Assembly: GCA_027012955.1 (NCBI GenBank)
Contig: JALUYL010000066.1
Location: 1 to 43,103, forward strand
Source of the DNA: Sulfurovum sp.
GTDB taxonomy: Bacteria > Campylobacterota > Campylobacteria > Campylobacterales > Sulfurovaceae
Length of the DNA: 43,103 nt
Direction of reading: 5' to 3'
The notes beneath the pieces were generated by a model. The model was given only the letters and a program-made list of their open reading frames with translations, was not told where the DNA came from and ran no database searches. The translations under genes were made by a program, and so were the position numbers. Shown piece by piece: positions 2,443-41,156 of this stretch. Position 1 is the stretch's first letter. Every line of letters starts with the position of its first letter.

Positions 2443-3639
2443 CTATAAATCAATCTCAACAACTTCGCCAAAAGGCACTTCTTTTGCTTCTGGCATTACC
2501 CAAAGTACATCATAAGAGACTTCCTCTTTCGGATATGCACCCTCTCCATCGGTAAAATAGATAAGCAGTGTCGGGTAGTCTATATGTCTATCTATATACT
2601 CAAAGACAGGACGAAAATCTGTACCCCCTCCCCCACCTAGTTCATACACCAAAGGTTCACCAGGTAAAAAGGTATGGACTGATTGCACTTTGGCATCTGC
2701 TGTGATAAGGTCTATCTCGTAGTTGGGGTACTGCTGCATCATGGAGCTTACTTCTCCTAAAAAGGTAGAAAGTAAGGCTTCATCTACTGAACCAGAAGTA
2801 TCGACAGCTACGATAATGCGTAACAAGTCAGAACTCATACTGGGTAGATAGATACCTCGGTAAAGAAACTTCATATTCGGAGGTGTAAATGTGTACGAAG
2901 TTTTGGCATGTGTGGCAATGTAGCCATACAAAAACTCACGCCAATCCACTTTATGGGAAAAATACTCAGGTACGACAAACTGTAAATCTTTAGGTAACTT
3001 CCCCTGACGTTTATGCTTTTGAAATATCTGTTCAAGATGTTCTTTTATCTCTTCGCTTAAGGTTTCAGGTTCAGAGGTAGAAGCCTCTTCCTCTTGGTCA
3101 TCCGCATTTTCTTCTTGCGTTTCCTCTGTATTGACATCTGGCATATGTTCTTTTTGCATGTGCAGATTTGGGGCATCGGTTTCATCGGAGTCTGTTATCT
3201 GCTCTGTCTCTTGCTCCATACTATGATCAGAGTTATCTCTCATCTCTGCACGGAGCATCTCATAGACTTCTTCTACATACATTCCGTCAAACTTCTCTTC
3301 AAAGTAAGCATACTCAGGCAGATGCATACCATTTTTAACCAACATAGCATTGACCACATAGTCAGTCGCAGTCTGCCAGAGCCATTTGGTGCGTCCATTC
3401 ACACGTTCATGATGCTTAAGTACGGTATGCATCGCCCCGTTTGCCATCACAAACTCAACCTCTTCAAGGCTCAGTCTATCGAGGTACTCAGAGTTATAGC
3501 GCATCTTTTCACCATCAGAGGTAAAGGTCAATATGTCATTATTTTTTTCTAGAGGAAGAGAAGATGCTATCGTACCAAAGTAAGGATGCTCAAGCATCAG
3601 TCTCGCTTTGGCTTTGGTAATTTTGTCTTTGTAGGTCAT
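2443..3639 (-). CDS. VWA-like / DUF2201 putative metallopeptidase-domain protein
   Basis: The N-terminal part (about 1-135) matches the DUF2201 metallopeptidase-like domain: a His-rich helix HTVLKHHERVNGR followed by WLWQTATDYVVNAML. A strongly acidic linker follows (about 138-215, rich in Glu, Asp, Gln and Thr). The C-terminal half is a von Willebrand A domain with an intact MIDAS: DTSGS near residue 275, then GGTDFRP and FTDGEG. Family members are usually encoded beside a MoxR-type AAA ATPase and are thought to act as ion-dependent adaptors or chaperones. No MoxR gene is visible here; the upstream neighbour, 16 bases away, is mnmA. The biochemical role is not established for the family. Confidence 0.82.
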   Translation of the reverse strand: MTYKDKITKAKARLMLEHPYFGTIASSLPLEKNNDILTFTSDGEKMRYNSEYLDRLSLEEVEFVMANGAMHTVLKHHERVNGRTKWLWQTATDYVVNAMLVKNGMHLPEYAYFEEKFDGMYVEEVYEMLRAEMRDNSDHSMEQETEQITDSDETDAPNLHMQKEHMPDVNTEETQEENADDQEEEASTSEPETLSEEIKEHLEQIFQKHKRQGKLPKDLQFVVPEYFSHKVDWREFLYGYIATHAKTSYTFTPPNMKFLYRGIYLPSMSSDLLRIIVAVDTSGSVDEALLSTFLGEVSSMMQQYPNYEIDLITADAKVQSVHTFLPGEPLVYELGGGGGTDFRPVFEYIDRHIDYPTLLIYFTDGEGAYPKEEVSYDVLWVMPEAKEVPFGEVVEIDL

Positions 3640-3655
3640 ACTAAAGGAAGCTTAC

Positions 3656-4681
3656 TCAACAGATAATACCACCACCGAGTAATTTGTCTTCTTCATAAAA
3701 AGCAGCCACCTGCCCTTTAGCGAGTCCAAATACTGGTTCATGAAGCGTTACATTTGCTCTACCATCTTTAATGACTACGTGACAAGGTACCGCGGTAGTT
3801 CTGTAGCGTACTTTCACCATACACTCAAACTCAGTGAGTTCTTTAAAGAGGTTGATGTGTTTTACTTCAAATGCATTCTCTTCAAGTTTTTCTTTGGTAC
3901 CTACGACTATCTGATTGCTCTCAGGTTTGATTTTAAGTACAAAGTGTGGGTCATGTGCACCATCTACGGTGAACCCTCTACGTTTTCCTATGGTGTAGTG
4001 CATGTAGCCTTTGTGTGTACCGACAACATTACCTTCCGTGTCTACTGTTTCACCAGGTATGTTGATGTCCATATGTTTAGCTAGTACTTCATCGTACGTG
4101 TTTTCAACAAAACAGATTTCCGAACTCTCTGCCTGTGTGGCAAAGTCTTTGAGTACTTCGATGTTGGCAGCATACGCCTTTACATCTGGTTTTACCCATG
4201 TACCCAAAGGAAAGATGAGTCTAGGTAAAACTTCTTTTTTCACTTCACATAGGAAATAACTCTGGTCTTTGTTTGCATCTTCTGCTGCATAAATGAACTC
4301 GCCATCACACTTAATGTAGTGTCCTGTAGCCACAAACTCAGCACCTACTTCATCGGCAAACTCTACCATCTTACCAAACTTGATGGTACGGTTACACATA
4401 ACACAAGGGTTAGGCGTAAGTCCCTCTTTGTAGCTCTCTACAAAGTAAGAGTATACTTCATCGTTAAATTCTTCACTGAGATCCAAGAAGTGTACTTTCA
4501 CACCCAAGTACTCTGCGACACGCTGTGCCTTAGTGAAGTTTGACTCATGGTAACCAGGTTTATGGTGTAACTTCATATACACACCTTCTACCTCATACCC
4601 CTCTTTTTGCAAAAGAATCGATGTTACCGTGGAGTCAACTCCACCACTCATACCTACTAAAACTTTACCTTTTTTAGCCAT
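3656..4681 (-). CDS. mnmA: tRNA-specific 2-thiouridylase MnmA
   Basis: MnmA thiolates U34 in tRNAs for Lys, Glu and Gln, using ATP to adenylate the uridine and sulfur carried as a cysteine persulfide. The PP-loop GMSGGVDST is at residues 10-18. The first catalytic Cys is C96 in NPCVMCN and the persulfide Cys is C190 in SSEICFVEN, matching C102 and C199 of E. coli MnmA. At 341 residues the length is slightly short but normal for Campylobacterota. The start overlaps the end of the upstream gene by 8 bases, so it is co-transcribed with the flhF block. Confidence 0.95.
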
Positions 4682-5153
4682 TTTTTTCTACCTTGTCTAC
4701 TTTCACAGCTATCTTCCCGTCAAGATTGACGAGTGATGCTGTGGCTATTTGTTTTTCTTTACGCATAAGGGAAACTGTTTCCAAATCCATCTGCGACACA
4801 TCTATCGTATGTCCTACTTCTACGATGCGACTCTGCACTGTACCAAACGAAAGTTTCAGAACTTCATGTTCTTTTCTTCGTGTTGTTGAAACTTGACGTT
4901 TGACAACGTTAAGTACTTCCATCATAACACTACGTTTTTTGCGTACTGGTATAACATGGGCATATACTATATCATTATTTAAAAGTATACACTCCAATGC
5001 TTCAAGTCCCATAAGTAGCACATCATCCACTTCTAAGTTGTCTAAACTTGAACTTCGCACCGTGACAAGGGGCAGTGTAAGTTCATAGCTAGGCAGACTC
5101 TTATGTTTTTGCATCAAAGACGCGAGACGATTTGCCTGAGTCTCTCCATGCAT
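4674..5153 (-). CDS. Unknown protein, possibly SpoA (FliM/FliN-like) fold
   Basis: I do not firmly recognise this 159-residue soluble protein. It has no signal peptide or membrane helix and begins 6 bases after flhF. Two stretches look like the beta-rich SpoA pattern of FliM/FliN: residues about 24-75 ([18 protein letters not shown], then short strands) and about 110-155 ([18 protein letters not shown], then [20 protein letters not shown]). SpoA domains build the flagellar C-ring and type III sorting platforms. Its place next to flhF makes a flagellar or polar role plausible, but no other flagellar gene is present in the window. The resemblance is by eye only and should be treated as weak. 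Confidence 0.5.
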
Positions 5154-5159
5154 GGCTAA

Positions 5160-6248
5160 TTATCCATCCAAATCACCTATAAAACGCTCTAACAAGTACT
5201 CTTTAGATGCTACAAGTAAGTCATCTGGAACTTCTTGCCCTATGGAAAAGTAACTCATCGGTACATCGTAGAGCAACATAAAGTTTAGTAACGTACCCAA
5301 GTGCTTTGTCTCATCAAACTTAGAGATAATCACCGAATGAAGATCTAAAAATGAAAAGTTAGTATAAATGTCATCCATATCTTCATACTTAACTGTAGCA
5401 GAAAGTAGTAAATTTACTTCTATTTTTCGAGGTATGTCTGACTGCACAAACTCTACAGTTTTGATGAACTTTTGTGTATCGTACGGAGACATACCCGCCG
5501 TATCTACAAGTATCACATCATAGTCATGTAAAGATTCAAGCCCTTTTATAAAGGTCTCTACAGAGTCCACAGTCACATGCTTTATCTGCATGATGTCTGC
5601 ATAGTGTCCCAATTGATCAAAGGCACCTACTTTATAGCTGTCTAAGTTGATAAACGCGACTTTATAAGGTTTGTCCATCATGTAGGCATAACGGGCAGCG
5701 AGTTTTGCGATGGTAGTCGTTTTACCCACACCTGTTGGACCTACAAGCATCATAATTTTTGGGCTATCAAAAGACTCTTCGACCACTTTTAAAGACTCAT
5801 CTATCTCTTCAAGGATATACGAAACCAAAAGGGTATCGTCATTTAAAATATGGTTACCCATGAGAGAGATAAGTACATCATCTAGCCACTGCTTTGCAAT
5901 GCCTTTTGAAACAAAGAGCTTCTTGACTTTTGCCAATACACTGTCATCTTCAACACCAAGTATCTCTTCTTTCATACTTGCTAACTGTTTTTTAAGTGTG
6001 GTTAACTCTTCAAGTAAAGCTGTTTCATCGCTTGATGGTGTCATGCTATGTTGCACAGAAGGTATGGCATCACAAGATTTAGCCAAAAAAACTTCTTCGG
6101 CGACTTCTATGGCGACTTCACAGCGTAACTGTCCATCTTCATACTTCACTTGCTTTGCAGAGAGAAGTTTTAGTCCTGCACCATATTTACCCACAGCTTC
6201 TTCATACGCGCTTTTTGGGTCATCTGCTACAAATGTTTCTTGTATCAC
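5160..6248 (-). CDS. flhF: FlhF, SRP-family GTPase
   Basis: FlhF is a membrane-targeted GTPase, related to Ffh and FtsY, that sets polar flagellum position and number. The typical N-terminus (MIQETFVADDPKSAYEEAV) is followed by a variable linker, an N-domain-like helical region, and a G domain with the P-loop GPTGVGKTT (170-178), INLDSYKVGAFDQL, DTAG (249-252) and SKFDET (309-314). The start is a GTG that overlaps the folK stop in the sequence GTGA. In C. jejuni the order is aroQ-folK-flhF-flhG followed by flagellar genes; here flhG is missing and a SpoA-like gene and mnmA follow instead. It may act without a flagellum in this organism. Confidence 0.9.
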   Translation of the reverse strand: MIQETFVADDPKSAYEEAVGKYGAGLKLLSAKQVKYEDGQLRCEVAIEVAEEVFLAKSCDAIPSVQHSMTPSSDETALLEELTTLKKQLASMKEEILGVEDDSVLAKVKKLFVSKGIAKQWLDDVLISLMGNHILNDDTLLVSYILEEIDESLKVVEESFDSPKIMMLVGPTGVGKTTTIAKLAARYAYMMDKPYKVAFINLDSYKVGAFDQLGHYADIMQIKHVTVDSVETFIKGLESLHDYDVILVDTAGMSPYDTQKFIKTVEFVQSDIPRKIEVNLLLSATVKYEDMDDIYTNFSFLDLHSVIISKFDETKHLGTLLNFMLLYDVPMSYFSIGQEVPDDLLVASKEYLLERFIGDLDG

Positions 6249-36846: not shown

Positions 36847-36870
36847 ATATATCAATATATCTTGATATAT
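36847..36870. promoter_or_regulatory. Inverted repeat upstream of ArsP-like gene
   Basis: Perfect 9-base arms ATATATCAA and TTGATATAT with a 6-base spacer, 21 bases before the ATG of the permease gene on the minus strand. ArsR-type repressors bind AT-rich repeats of this form near their promoters. No arsR gene is in the window, so the regulator would be elsewhere. Confidence 0.5.
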
Positions 36871-36894
36871 CATAAAGTTGGCTTAAAATATTTA

Positions 36895-36910
36895 TTATCT
36901 TTTAAGATAA
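36895..36910. promoter_or_regulatory. Second AT-rich palindrome in the divergent gap
   Basis: TTATCTT, two bases, AAGATAA, perfect 7-base arms, 68 bases before the ATG of the antitoxin gene. May be a second operator or a short hairpin; could also be an antitoxin binding site, since RHH antitoxins often bind near their own promoters. Confidence 0.3.
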
Positions 36911-36977
36911 TATCCTATATGGTTAATATAGACATCTTAACCCCAAAACAATTTTTACAACAAAGAGGAGCACTAAA

Positions 36978-37205
36978 ATGAATTTTGCACTACGTATTCC
37001 TGACTATTACAAAGCAGAGATAGAAGAGCTAAAAGGCAATGTTTCGATGAATCAATTTATAGTCAATACCCTATCTGAAAAGATAGCGACACTCAGAACA
37101 GTGGACTATCTAGAAGAAAGAGCCCGTAGAGGTTCTGTGGAGCATGCATTAAAACTGTTGAACAATGCACCTGACGTTGAACCTGATGAGCGTGATAAGC
37201 TTTAG
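36978..37205 (+). CDS. Ribbon-helix-helix antitoxin-like protein, HicB/CopG type
   Basis: The 75-residue protein begins MNFALRIPDYYKAEIEELK and continues NVSMNQFIVNTLSEKI, the strand-helix-helix of an RHH repressor or antitoxin that binds DNA as dimer. The C-terminal part (YLEERARRG, PDVEPDERD) is typical of the antitoxin arm that holds a toxin. A strong GAGGAG precedes the ATG. No toxin gene follows: the next 167 bases contain no gene and then the R-M operon ends from the other side. So it is an orphan antitoxin, or a toxin was lost. Confidence 0.75.
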   Translation: MNFALRIPDYYKAEIEELKGNVSMNQFIVNTLSEKIATLRTVDYLEERARRGSVEHALKLLNNAPDVEPDERDKL

Positions 37206-37372
37206 GGTTCAATAACGGCTGTTACATATGTGCAAAGTAGCCTTTTCTTCATACGAGTAGCTGGAAATTCAAAAAGTGCACTTTCAACGCCTGCCTCCAA
37301 CGATTCTCATGAGCGATAATTTTCCTTTAGGTAAATTATTCGTTCCTCATCCTTATTAATATGGCTTATTAT

Positions 37373-38335
37373 CTACGTTGTAATAATATCCATTAGTGAA
37401 TTGCTTACATGCCACATGAGAACTGGTGGCACAGCATTTCCTATTGCACGATATTGTCTATTTTCTGAAACAGATTCTAAGTGAAAATCATCTGGAAAAG
37501 ATTGTATATTTGCTGCTTCTCTTGGAGTAAATCGTCTGTATTTTCCATCTTCTAATAATACAGGGTCAGTGCTATTCAAGCTAACTTTTGAAAGGTGGGC
37601 GCTTATTGTATTGCATGGTAATTCTATGTTTTGGGATCGCCCTTTATTCATCTTATGTTGAACACGCTTCATTCCTTCTACCGCTCTATCACTAAAATAG
37701 TATTTTTCTATAATATTATCTTGAAGAACAGTTTTTAAAGGAACATGATTTTCTTTTGTAATGGCTTCTGGGAATGAAAATTTTTGGTAATCTTTTTCAT
37801 TTTTAAACCCTAAAATAAATACTCTTTCTCTTTTTTGAGGTACTCCAAAATCTGCTGAATTAAGTAATTTCCATTTGACAAAATAACCACTTTCTTCAAA
37901 ATGTTTAATAATTAAAGGAAAAGCTTTTTTCTTATTCGCAGATAATAGTCCTTTGACATTTTCAGCAATGAAAAATCTTGGTTTTTTCGTTTGCAATATT
38001 CTACACATTTCGAAAAAAAGCTGACCTTTTTCATCTTTAATTCCCAAACGAGGTGGATTCTGTGCGACAATTGAAAATGACTGACAAGGAAACCCTCCAA
38101 GCAATATATCATGTGCAGGTATATCTTTATCTGAAACTTTTCGAACATCTTTTGTTTCACATTTGTGTGAAAAATTATTATTATAAATTGTTGTTGCATA
38201 AGAATCAAAATCAGCAGCGTATACAATTTTTGTAGGATGCTTTTTATAAAAATTTTTTAAATAATTAAAGTTTCCTTGTATACCTAAATCCATACCTCCA
38301 CATCCACAGAAAAATGATGTAACATTTAATGTCAT
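37373..38335 (-). CDS. DNA (cytosine-5) methyltransferase
   Basis: The track starts at a TTG, but the ATG at 38335 shares an ATGA overlap with the end of the nuclease gene and gives the motif I start MTLNVTSFFCGCGGMDLG, so I use it (320 residues). Motif IV GGFPCQSFS has the catalytic Cys C84, motif VI is FIAENVKGLL, motif VIII is QKRERVFILG, and motif X is AIGNAVPPVL. It transfers methyl to C5 of cytosine in its recognition site and should protect host DNA from the adjacent nuclease. It differs from the second methyltransferase in length and in its target domain. Confidence 0.9.
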   Translation of the reverse strand: MTLNVTSFFCGCGGMDLGIQGNFNYLKNFYKKHPTKIVYAADFDSYATTIYNNNFSHKCETKDVRKVSDKDIPAHDILLGGFPCQSFSIVAQNPPRLGIKDEKGQLFFEMCRILQTKKPRFFIAENVKGLLSANKKKAFPLIIKHFEESGYFVKWKLLNSADFGVPQKRERVFILGFKNEKDYQKFSFPEAITKENHVPLKTVLQDNIIEKYYFSDRAVEGMKRVQHKMNKGRSQNIELPCNTISAHLSKVSLNSTDPVLLEDGKYRRFTPREAANIQSFPDDFHLESVSENRQYRAIGNAVPPVLMWHVSNSLMDIITT

Positions 38336-39765
38336 ATTTCCAATAACCTTTGCCAATTTCCATTTGAGTTAGAAAAGTTCACTACTAAATACTTGTCAAT
38401 TTTCAACTCTCCCTCGTTATATTTTTTAACTGGGTCCTGAATTGTAAATATTTTTTTCTCTGTGTCATTAATAACTAAATAATAAATAAAGTAACGGTCA
38501 CCCATAGTTTCAGCTGTATCCCATTCATTTGGAGTTAGTTTAAATCTATTAATTGAACTCGCTTTTTTTGATTTAGTTGATTTGACTTCTATATATCTTT
38601 TGTTCTTTTCAACTTCTATACTTTGAATATCATATCCAACACCTAAATGTGTTGGGATTTTATTAATGATATGTTGTCTCTTGGATTTATCTTTAGTTCT
38701 TAAATATTCATGTGCTAAAATTAAACTTTCACCATAGTCACCAATAATTTTAGTCGGGACACTTTTGCCACCTTTTAATTGAGAATGATATTCTTGTATA
38801 AGTTTTGAAAGGTTCTCTGATTGCTTAGAATTAAGCTGAGGAGAGAAAACTTCTATAGAATCAAAATCATTTACATAATTAAACCATACTTCTTCTGCAT
38901 TAGATATATCTGATGTTTCTATTTCAGGCTTATTATAGAATTCATCATAAGAGTTAAACCAAGTTGTTTGAGTTAGGTGATAATTAATGGTATTTTCATT
39001 TTCATCATTTAAATAATAATAGAAAGATGTTCCCTTATCATGTAGTAAGTTAGCTAGTACCATATAGTCTAATATATCACCCGCATATCTGTATACATCA
39101 CCACTTGAAGGAAATGTACCTGTTTTTTCATTTTTTAATTGTTCATACTTATAATCGTACTTAACTTTATTTTTTCTATTTTCTAAAACTAGTTTTGCGA
39201 CTTCTTTAGGAGAACGGCCATCTCTAGTTACTCTTAAATCATAATACGCACACTGGGTCAATTCTTCTGCTGTGATTGAAAATGGTTTCTTTAAAAGTTT
39301 TTCCCCTTCAGCTAAAATATTTAATATATACGTACATGGTTTAAATTTTATACCTGCATGGATTTGTGATTTAATATAATCAGGTCTTGTATGTCCTCCT
39401 GGATATTGAAAGGTATATAAAAAATAATTAAAAAACTCATCTAGATATTGATTTCTAGAAAGCCTTTTGGCCATCTTACTTGGATGCAGTTTTTTCTCAC
39501 TTTTTTGAATAAATGCAAATAGAGCAGATATTTCTGTTCTCCAATTATTTATAGTTTTATCTGATGAACTTCTATTTTTTTTAAATTGTTTGATTACTTG
39601 ATTCAACTCTTTATCAGATTCTTTTTTTGGTAAAACATTCATTTCTGATATTGAAGTTGCAACATATAATAGAACTTCTTCAATATCAGTTTTAAAACGA
39701 GGTCGTACATGGTGTAACCTGAAAAAGTATTCATCAGGTATTTTATACTTGATTGGAGTAATCAT
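38332..39765 (-). CDS. Type II restriction endonuclease, DUF3883-type PD-(D/E)XK
   Basis: The 477-residue protein is placed between two m5C methyltransferases with ATGA overlaps on both sides, the sign of a tight R-M operon. The C-terminal third is a DUF3883-like nuclease domain: E346 in YGESLILAHEYL, D379 in GYDIQSIEV, and E393-K395 in YIEVKSTKS form the E/D...EXK active site, followed by FKLTPNEWDTA. The N-terminal two thirds are helical and unknown, presumably for DNA recognition. The target sequence cannot be read from the sequence. Codon use is more AT-rich than in the neighbouring genes, which suggests horizontal acquisition. Confidence 0.8.
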   Translation of the reverse strand: MITPIKYKIPDEYFFRLHHVRPRFKTDIEEVLLYVATSISEMNVLPKKESDKELNQVIKQFKKNRSSSDKTINNWRTEISALFAFIQKSEKKLHPSKMAKRLSRNQYLDEFFNYFLYTFQYPGGHTRPDYIKSQIHAGIKFKPCTYILNILAEGEKLLKKPFSITAEELTQCAYYDLRVTRDGRSPKEVAKLVLENRKNKVKYDYKYEQLKNEKTGTFPSSGDVYRYAGDILDYMVLANLLHDKGTSFYYYLNDENENTINYHLTQTTWFNSYDEFYNKPEIETSDISNAEEVWFNYVNDFDSIEVFSPQLNSKQSENLSKLIQEYHSQLKGGKSVPTKIIGDYGESLILAHEYLRTKDKSKRQHIINKIPTHLGVGYDIQSIEVEKNKRYIEVKSTKSKKASSINRFKLTPNEWDTAETMGDRYFIYYLVINDTEKKIFTIQDPVKKYNEGELKIDKYLVVNFSNSNGNWQRLLEI

Positions 39766-40802
39766 AATAAATACTTTTTGATAGATTGAGCTAATACTTC
39801 AGCTAGCATAGGAGGAACAGCATTCCCCACCTGCTTTTCTTGAGCAGTTTTAGAACCATAAAATATAAAATTATCAGGGAAAGATTGGATTCTAGCTGCT
39901 TCACGAACAGTCGGTATTCTATTAAATTTATAATGAAAGTGATGTCTATGTCCAGTGTCAATAGTAAAACTTGGTTTTTTACTATTAAGCCTTGTCCACG
40001 CAATATTTACTTTTCTTATTTCCTGTAATTCTTTTGGCAAGCTCTTATAATTTCCTCCATCAGGAACAAGAGCAATTGTTTCTTTCGTTGTTTCTGTATG
40101 TTTTGTTATTTGGTGATTATATATTCCTTCAGAATTCTGACGTATTAGTTTTTGATAGTCACTTTGATGTTTAGCATTATATGCTGAACCATTTTCAAGT
40201 TCATCTTCAGGTAAATCACTAATAGCTTGACCTGAAGTTACTTTACTTTCGGAGTGTGTTGTTAATGGGAATAAAAAGTCATCTTTACTATTTAATAAAC
40301 CTATGAAAAAAACACGTTTTCTATTCTGAGGAACACCATAGTCAGATGCCAGCAAAATTTTATAAGTAACCGTATAACCAATATCCTCAAATTCTTTTAT
40401 TATTTCATCTTTCACTAAGCCTTTATTCATTGAAACTAAGTTAGGAACATTTTCCATGACAAAAACTTTAGGCTTAAAATATTCAACATATGATACAAAA
40501 GATTGATACAGTTTGTTTCGGGGGTCATTTACATCTCTTTTTCCAGAGATTGAAAATCCTTGGCAAGGTGGCCCACCTATTATTACATCGACTCCATCTT
40601 CTAAATATTCATTTTTTATAGTGGATGGAAGAATCTCACTTATGTCTCCACAAATAGTTTTAGAGTTACTATGATTCTTTTCGAATGTTACTAAAGCTGG
40701 TTCCCATACATCTATGCCTAATTTAATATCAAAATCTGCTTTTTCAAAACCTAGAGAGATACCACCACAACCACAAAATAAATCTAATACTTTTCTTTTC
40801 AT
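39762..40802 (-). CDS. DNA (cytosine-5) methyltransferase (second)
   Basis: The 346-residue enzyme has motif I LDLFCGCGGISLGFE, motif IV GGPPCQGFS with catalytic Cys C80, motif VI VFVMENVPNL, motif VIII QNRKRVFFIGL and motif X QVGNAVPPML. It is the first gene of the R-M operon and its stop overlaps the nuclease start in ATGA. Two different m5C enzymes around one nuclease suggest an asymmetric target, one enzyme for each strand. The start at 40802 is preceded by GGA and by an AT-rich promoter-like run. Confidence 0.92.
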   Translation of the reverse strand: MKRKVLDLFCGCGGISLGFEKADFDIKLGIDVWEPALVTFEKNHSNSKTICGDISEILPSTIKNEYLEDGVDVIIGGPPCQGFSISGKRDVNDPRNKLYQSFVSYVEYFKPKVFVMENVPNLVSMNKGLVKDEIIKEFEDIGYTVTYKILLASDYGVPQNRKRVFFIGLLNSKDDFLFPLTTHSESKVTSGQAISDLPEDELENGSAYNAKHQSDYQKLIRQNSEGIYNHQITKHTETTKETIALVPDGGNYKSLPKELQEIRKVNIAWTRLNSKKPSFTIDTGHRHHFHYKFNRIPTVREAARIQSFPDNFIFYGSKTAQEKQVGNAVPPMLAEVLAQSIKKYLL

Positions 40803-41156
40803 TTTATTCCAAATATATATATATTGAATTTTAACATACCTATAAAAAAAAGTGGTTTATATTGTAATGTATTTGATTATTTTTTTATACAGGCACTTTG
40901 GATGGGTGACTCTTAACGTAACATAATATCCTGCTATTACGATATTTCCATATTAAGAGTATATCAAATATGTCTTTATATTGATGAAAACAAAGTAGAT
41001 TTGCAGATTTGACAATATTTCACGTTTTGATAACTAGTCCTAATGTTCTTTTATTAACCCTTACGGCAAAACATTGACCTTATACACATTTTCCTGCATG
41101 GTGGGTGCAACCCACCCGACGCTTACTTCAATCCAATATATAAACTCAAATCATAT
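40803..41156. other. 354-base intergenic stretch between R-M operon and DUF4395 gene
   Basis: This stretch contains no credible gene. It is very AT-rich near the R-M operon and holds the presumed R-M promoter (ATATATATATA about 10-20 bases before the ATG). Near its other end is a GC-rich palindrome (41100-41116). The change of composition marks the likely boundary of the acquired R-M block. Confidence 0.5.
41100..41116. repeat. REP-like palindrome GGTGGGT-GCA-ACCCACC
   Basis: Perfect 7-base arms around a 3-base loop, GC-rich in an AT-rich gap, 40 bases beyond the stop of the DUF4395 gene. On the minus strand it reads GGGTGGGTTGCACCCACC. Similar GGGTGGGT-type palindromes are repeated in many genomes. 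It may also act as terminator for the DUF4395 operon. Confidence 0.5.

Follow-up and report, generated by a model that had tools for sequence, protein, structure and literature searches.

A horizontally acquired three-gene operon of the BpuJI family of Type IIS restriction-modification systems in a Sulfurovum genome

The window analysed here, a stretch of 43,103 nucleotides from a Sulfurovum genome, carries a three-gene operon that belongs to a known family of Type IIS restriction-modification (R-M) systems, is well formed and was acquired horizontally. Domain identities, intact catalytic motifs, a conserved operon layout and an empty insertion site were observed, and on this basis it can be held with high confidence that the operon is a complete and probably functional system of the BpuJI family that was gained by horizontal transfer. 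In such a system, the restriction endonuclease (R) would read a short asymmetric site through its N-terminal double winged-helix domain and cut nearby DNA through its C-terminal PD-(D/E)XK domain, while each of the two m5C methyltransferases (Mup and Mdown) would protect one strand, because the site would be asymmetric.

Operon layout and methyltransferases

The operon spans 37373–40802 on the minus strand and is transcribed in the order Mup, R, Mdown. The first gene, Mup (39762–40802, minus strand), encodes an m5C DNA methyltransferase of 346 aa (PF00145, E = 1.1e-82), followed by a Type IIS-like restriction endonuclease of 477 aa (R, 38332–39765, minus strand) and, as the third gene, by a further m5C DNA methyltransferase of 320 aa (Mdown, 37373–38335, minus strand; PF00145, E = 1.3e-77); the start of Mdown was taken at the ATG, and the mechanical list of open reading frames (ORFs) began at an upstream TTG. 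ATGA overlaps join Mup to R and R to Mdown, with the local sequences TTATGATT and ATATGACA; hence the ORFs and the joint sequences bear out a preliminary description of the locus, which had given the order as methyltransferase, nuclease, methyltransferase with ATGA at both joints.

That description had also spoken of two different m5C enzymes. Both proteins match PF00145 and share only about 28% identity, and therefore represent distinct enzymes with no recent duplication behind them. In an alignment that included the target-recognition region, the motifs of Mup (DLFCGCGG, PPCQ, ENV, QNRKR and GNAVPP) and those of Mdown (FFCGCGG, PCQS, ENV, QKRER and GNAVPP) are all intact. The genome of the window holds nine C5 methyltransferase genes, with Mup and Mdown counted. 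The earlier step from two m5C enzymes with one nuclease to an asymmetric site gains support by analogy, as the BpuJI family is Type IIS.

Domains, fold and catalytic site of the nuclease

On sequence and model evidence, R is assigned to the BpuJI family of nucleases, its N-terminal two thirds being identified as the BpuJI DNA-recognition domain. Residues 7–295 match the Pfam family BpuJI_N (PF11564) with E = 1.1e-107 and 359.9 bits against a cut-off of 25, and residues 352–441 match NOV_C/DUF3883 (PF13020) with E = 8.4e-15. Among solved structures, R.BpuJI was matched by phmmer with the single protein as query (8.3e-11) and by a 22-row profile of R (E = 3.2e-56), and the sequence search of solved structures returned nothing convincing besides it. 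Similarly, the predicted fold of R matches the BpuJI structures 5hnh, 2vla and 5hlt in Foldseek with a TM score of 0.78–0.80, normalised to the target over the solved domain. The full-length AlphaFold model is of modest to low confidence (pLDDT 62), for which reason a separate model of the catalytic domain was built (pLDDT 67.5); its top fold match is D212, a PD-(D/E)XK nuclease (E = 3.4e-4), and Hjc Holliday-junction resolvases are among its weak fold matches. The catalytic domain of BpuJI resembles archaeal Holliday-junction resolvases.

The DUF3883-like catalytic end that had been proposed for R stands, with the NOV_C match and with E346, D379, E393 and K395 at the positions originally given and invariant across 22 aligned sequences. 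As for profiles of whole proteins, the PADLOC REase_II model PDLC03432 spans residues 12–457 of R and nearly the whole of the BpuJI-type protein of genome G011, from the same genus (456 bits), and no NCBIfam model matching R was found. A homologous plasmid gene carries the annotation "DUF3883 domain-containing protein". In view of the BpuJI_N match, the reading of R as a nuclease family of its own was rejected. By the same token, the suggestion that recognition and cutting might be new is not supported, given that the N-terminal two thirds correspond to a recognition domain with a solved DNA complex; the identity of this region is the sole thing that the preliminary description missed, its observation being otherwise confirmed. 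BpuJI is a Type IIS enzyme with a DNA-bound double helix-turn-helix (HTH) recognition domain, the paired HTH arrangement of which is shared by BrxA of BREX and by FokI (PMC9240713). The likeness to BrxA and FokI is one of structure only, as the window holds a three-gene R-M operon and not a BREX locus.

Horizontal acquisition and neighbouring elements

The nearest relative with the same neighbouring genes, genome G021, has an empty operon site in the comparison with related genomes proposed at the outset. In blastn of the sister locus (L037), a block of about 4.27 kb (36885–41155) is absent from G021 between the genes for an arsP-like permease and a DUF4395 protein, which lie about 60 bp apart in G021 and whose flanking products are 93–97% identical to those of the window; the junction TTAAAA(A)T is common to both genomes. 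Genomes G041 and G052 are also without the block at the same place. The GC content of the operon is 30.1% vs 37.9% in the part of the window on its left side, and third-position GC is 0.17–0.18 in all three operon genes vs 0.35 in both flanking genes, in line with the AT-richer codons from which transfer had been suspected. Because the site is empty in the sister genome and third-position GC is lower in the operon than in its neighbours, horizontal transfer into the lineage of the window is well supported as the simplest reading. No convincing terminal repeats were found at the bounds of the block, and no recombinase gene was found within it in the ORF list.

Several further elements lie in or beside the block. 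The intergenic part upstream of the operon (40803–41155) includes a repeat of about 140 bp dispersed through the genus (40913–41053, and 41053–41121), of which the same genome holds an 86% copy at G000:C80:8501–8640; mostly partial copies of the flank with this repeat occur elsewhere in the genus, where 32 of 78 genomes show some match, and the repeat gave no Rfam match and no significant fold. At the other end of the block, and convergent to the operon, an orphan antitoxin-like ORF of 75 aa (36978–37205, plus strand) has a weak VapB match below the cut-off and no adjoining toxin gene; its homologue in L051 is paired with a PIN_3 toxin gene, the two overlapping by 4 nt. A short imperfect palindrome at 37299–37348 (TGAGCGATAATTT...AAATTATTCGTTCCTCA) is REP-like and is also seen in five further genomes of the genus. 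Another palindrome, TATCAATATATCTTGATA at 36847–36870, lies upstream of the arsP-like permease gene, is near-identical over 20–24 bp in relatives within the genus, and looks like a putative metalloregulator (ArsR-type) operator.

Predicted recognition site

BpuJI, from Bacillus pumilus, reportedly recognises CCCGT. The enzyme of the window resembles it in the BpuJI_N recognition domain and in full-length similarity to the REase_II profile, and differs from it in that the recognition domain is about 20% identical and the D2 recognition helix is changed, reading QHIREQ in BpuJI vs RYAGDI in R, such that Q208 of BpuJI aligns with R226 in the window-type subfamily and in viral-contig relatives. 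By contrast with this change, N67 of BpuJI has its conserved counterpart in N74 of R, and two arginines in the N-terminal arm of R, R16 and R21, are invariant; the substitutions N67A and Q208A each abolish DNA binding by BpuJI (PMC9240713). Overall, R is only 20–26% identical to BpuJI or to its ortholog in G011, and the Mdown of the window is 47% identical to the BpuJI-type Mdown. Judged from its sequence, the window enzyme falls in a separate subfamily from BpuJI, one whose second recognition helix differs, from which a different base in the site would probably follow.

A true BpuJI ortholog occurs in the same genus in G011 (277 bits to 2VLA, Gln retained), with REase_II as its best profile and with an operon (L045, 4655–8080) that likewise comprises Mup, R and Mdown with two m5C methyltransferases. 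This operon is chimeric, its Mup being of the window-type lineage: between G011 and Sulfurimonas L018, whose Mup is of the window type, identity reaches 80% for Mup, compared with 26% for R and 54% for Mdown, and the G011 Mup nests with those of L018 and L002 in the Mup tree (support 100/99). Most simply, this pattern reflects an exchange of Mup between operons of the BpuJI type and of the window type, and the Mup target should therefore be common to both sites. Taken together, the conserved N74, the change at R226 and the G011 Mup suggest that the site of the window most likely shares most of CCCGT. The replacement of Gln by Arg would fit a shift from a contact with A to a contact with G, that is, from CCCGT to CCCGC, and CCCGC is the leading candidate, though as apt to be right as wrong. 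FauI and SmuI, Type IIS enzymes whose site CCCGC is one base from CCCGT, come from Flavobacterium (F. aquatile) and Sphingobacterium (S. multivorum), respectively (PMC4309577). Window-type operons are present in these two source genera, with a nuclease 68–71% identical to R, and FauI and SmuI are thus linked to the window-type subfamily by source genus alone, with the hypothesis that they may be members of it. For its part, FauI is accompanied by two m5C methyltransferases; its cut is fixed and that of BpuJI variable.

If the changed D2 helix had re-targeted R more widely, the site could lie wholly outside the CCCG family, and the low identity of the recognition domain to that of BpuJI, together with methyltransferase specificities that are not readable from sequence, fits such a change; nevertheless, it appears unlikely, as the apparent exchange of Mup should fail between sites that had nothing in common. 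Alternatively, the same system could retain CCCGT, the site of BpuJI itself, in keeping with the shared family and layout and with the retention of residues in the N-terminal arm and the D1 helix (R16, R21, K70, T71 and N74); against this, the divergence of R, its altered D2 helix and an Mdown far from the BpuJI type make an unchanged site distinctly improbable. Site avoidance was also assessed from 5-mer statistics covering 261 kb of the window genome and 250 kb from G021, where neither CCCGC (ratio 1.04, rank 283 of 512) nor CCCGT (ratio 0.92, rank 157 of 512) is depleted, so that these counts neither support nor exclude a site; avoidance of a Type IIS site may well be slight, and the sister genome lacks the block.

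With a site that shares most of CCCGT as the preferred reading, a wider scheme may tentatively be drawn, although it is somewhat more doubtful than CCCGC itself. The two operon types would record a change of Type IIS site in which the nuclease and Mdown change together, Mup reads the shared core and is exchangeable between CCCGT-type and window-type operons (as in G011), and the D2 replacement of Gln by Arg switches the final T:A to C:G.

Relatives and conservation of the layout

Scanning a single genome for each species yielded 30 loci, in which the relatives of R are mostly 61–72% identical and belong to Bacteroidota, Campylobacterota and Gammaproteobacteria, besides lone contigs assigned to other groups. 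Cultured carriers of a window-type operon include Sphingobacterium corticibacterium, Maribacter thermophilus and Saonia flava. Mup, R and Mdown lie on one strand, usually overlapping, in all loci long enough to tell, and gene order and close packing are kept among about 30 relatives whose nuclease is complete and which span several phyla; for instance, the operons L002 and L005–L029 from the three named groups have the same genes, order and near-zero spacing, with a nuclease 61–72% identical. The overlap of R and Mdown is 4 nt in the window and several Campylobacterota, and in Bacteroidota it is conserved at 31 nt, from an upstream start. Searches of plasmids, phages and viral contigs for R gave only distant relatives, among which the Acinetobacter plasmid pANC7914.1 (L035; nuclease 35% identical) and three IMG/VR contigs (37–45%) have the same layout. 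The three-gene arrangement is thus the normal form of the family and not a novelty, as it recurs in relatives of several phyla, which also speaks against new recognition and cutting in R. Within the phylum the family is rare, occurring in 4 of 200 relatives, with the window genome counted, and in 2 of 397 genomes of a phylum-wide sample with a member over the cut-off.

Some loci depart from this form. An IMG/VR contig (L104) has a third C5 methyltransferase-like stretch (5089–5982) right after the usual three genes, and the Photobacterium plasmid L036 encodes a BpuJI_N-only protein of 306 aa (2989–3909), in which no catalytic domain was found, divergent from two adjacent m5C methyltransferase genes on the other strand. 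In L031, L032 and L033, two methyltransferase genes flank a nuclease gene that is broken, being frameshifted or truncated; this reflects either modification kept after loss of restriction or assembly errors. Although these intact methyltransferase genes beside broken nucleases offer a precedent for a modification-only or decaying system with an inactive nuclease and orphan methyltransferases, such a state is very improbable for the window, where the nuclease ORF is full-length and every catalytic residue is kept.

Significance

The novelty of the operon is low, because the domain that had gone unrecognised has a solved homologue, and its value is mostly one of annotation, in that a "DUF3883 domain-containing protein" becomes nameable as a BpuJI-family restriction enzyme. 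In addition, the apparently exchanged Mup offers a testable route to the study of one-base divergence between asymmetric restriction sites, and natural variants for the engineering of Type IIS specificity are available within the family.
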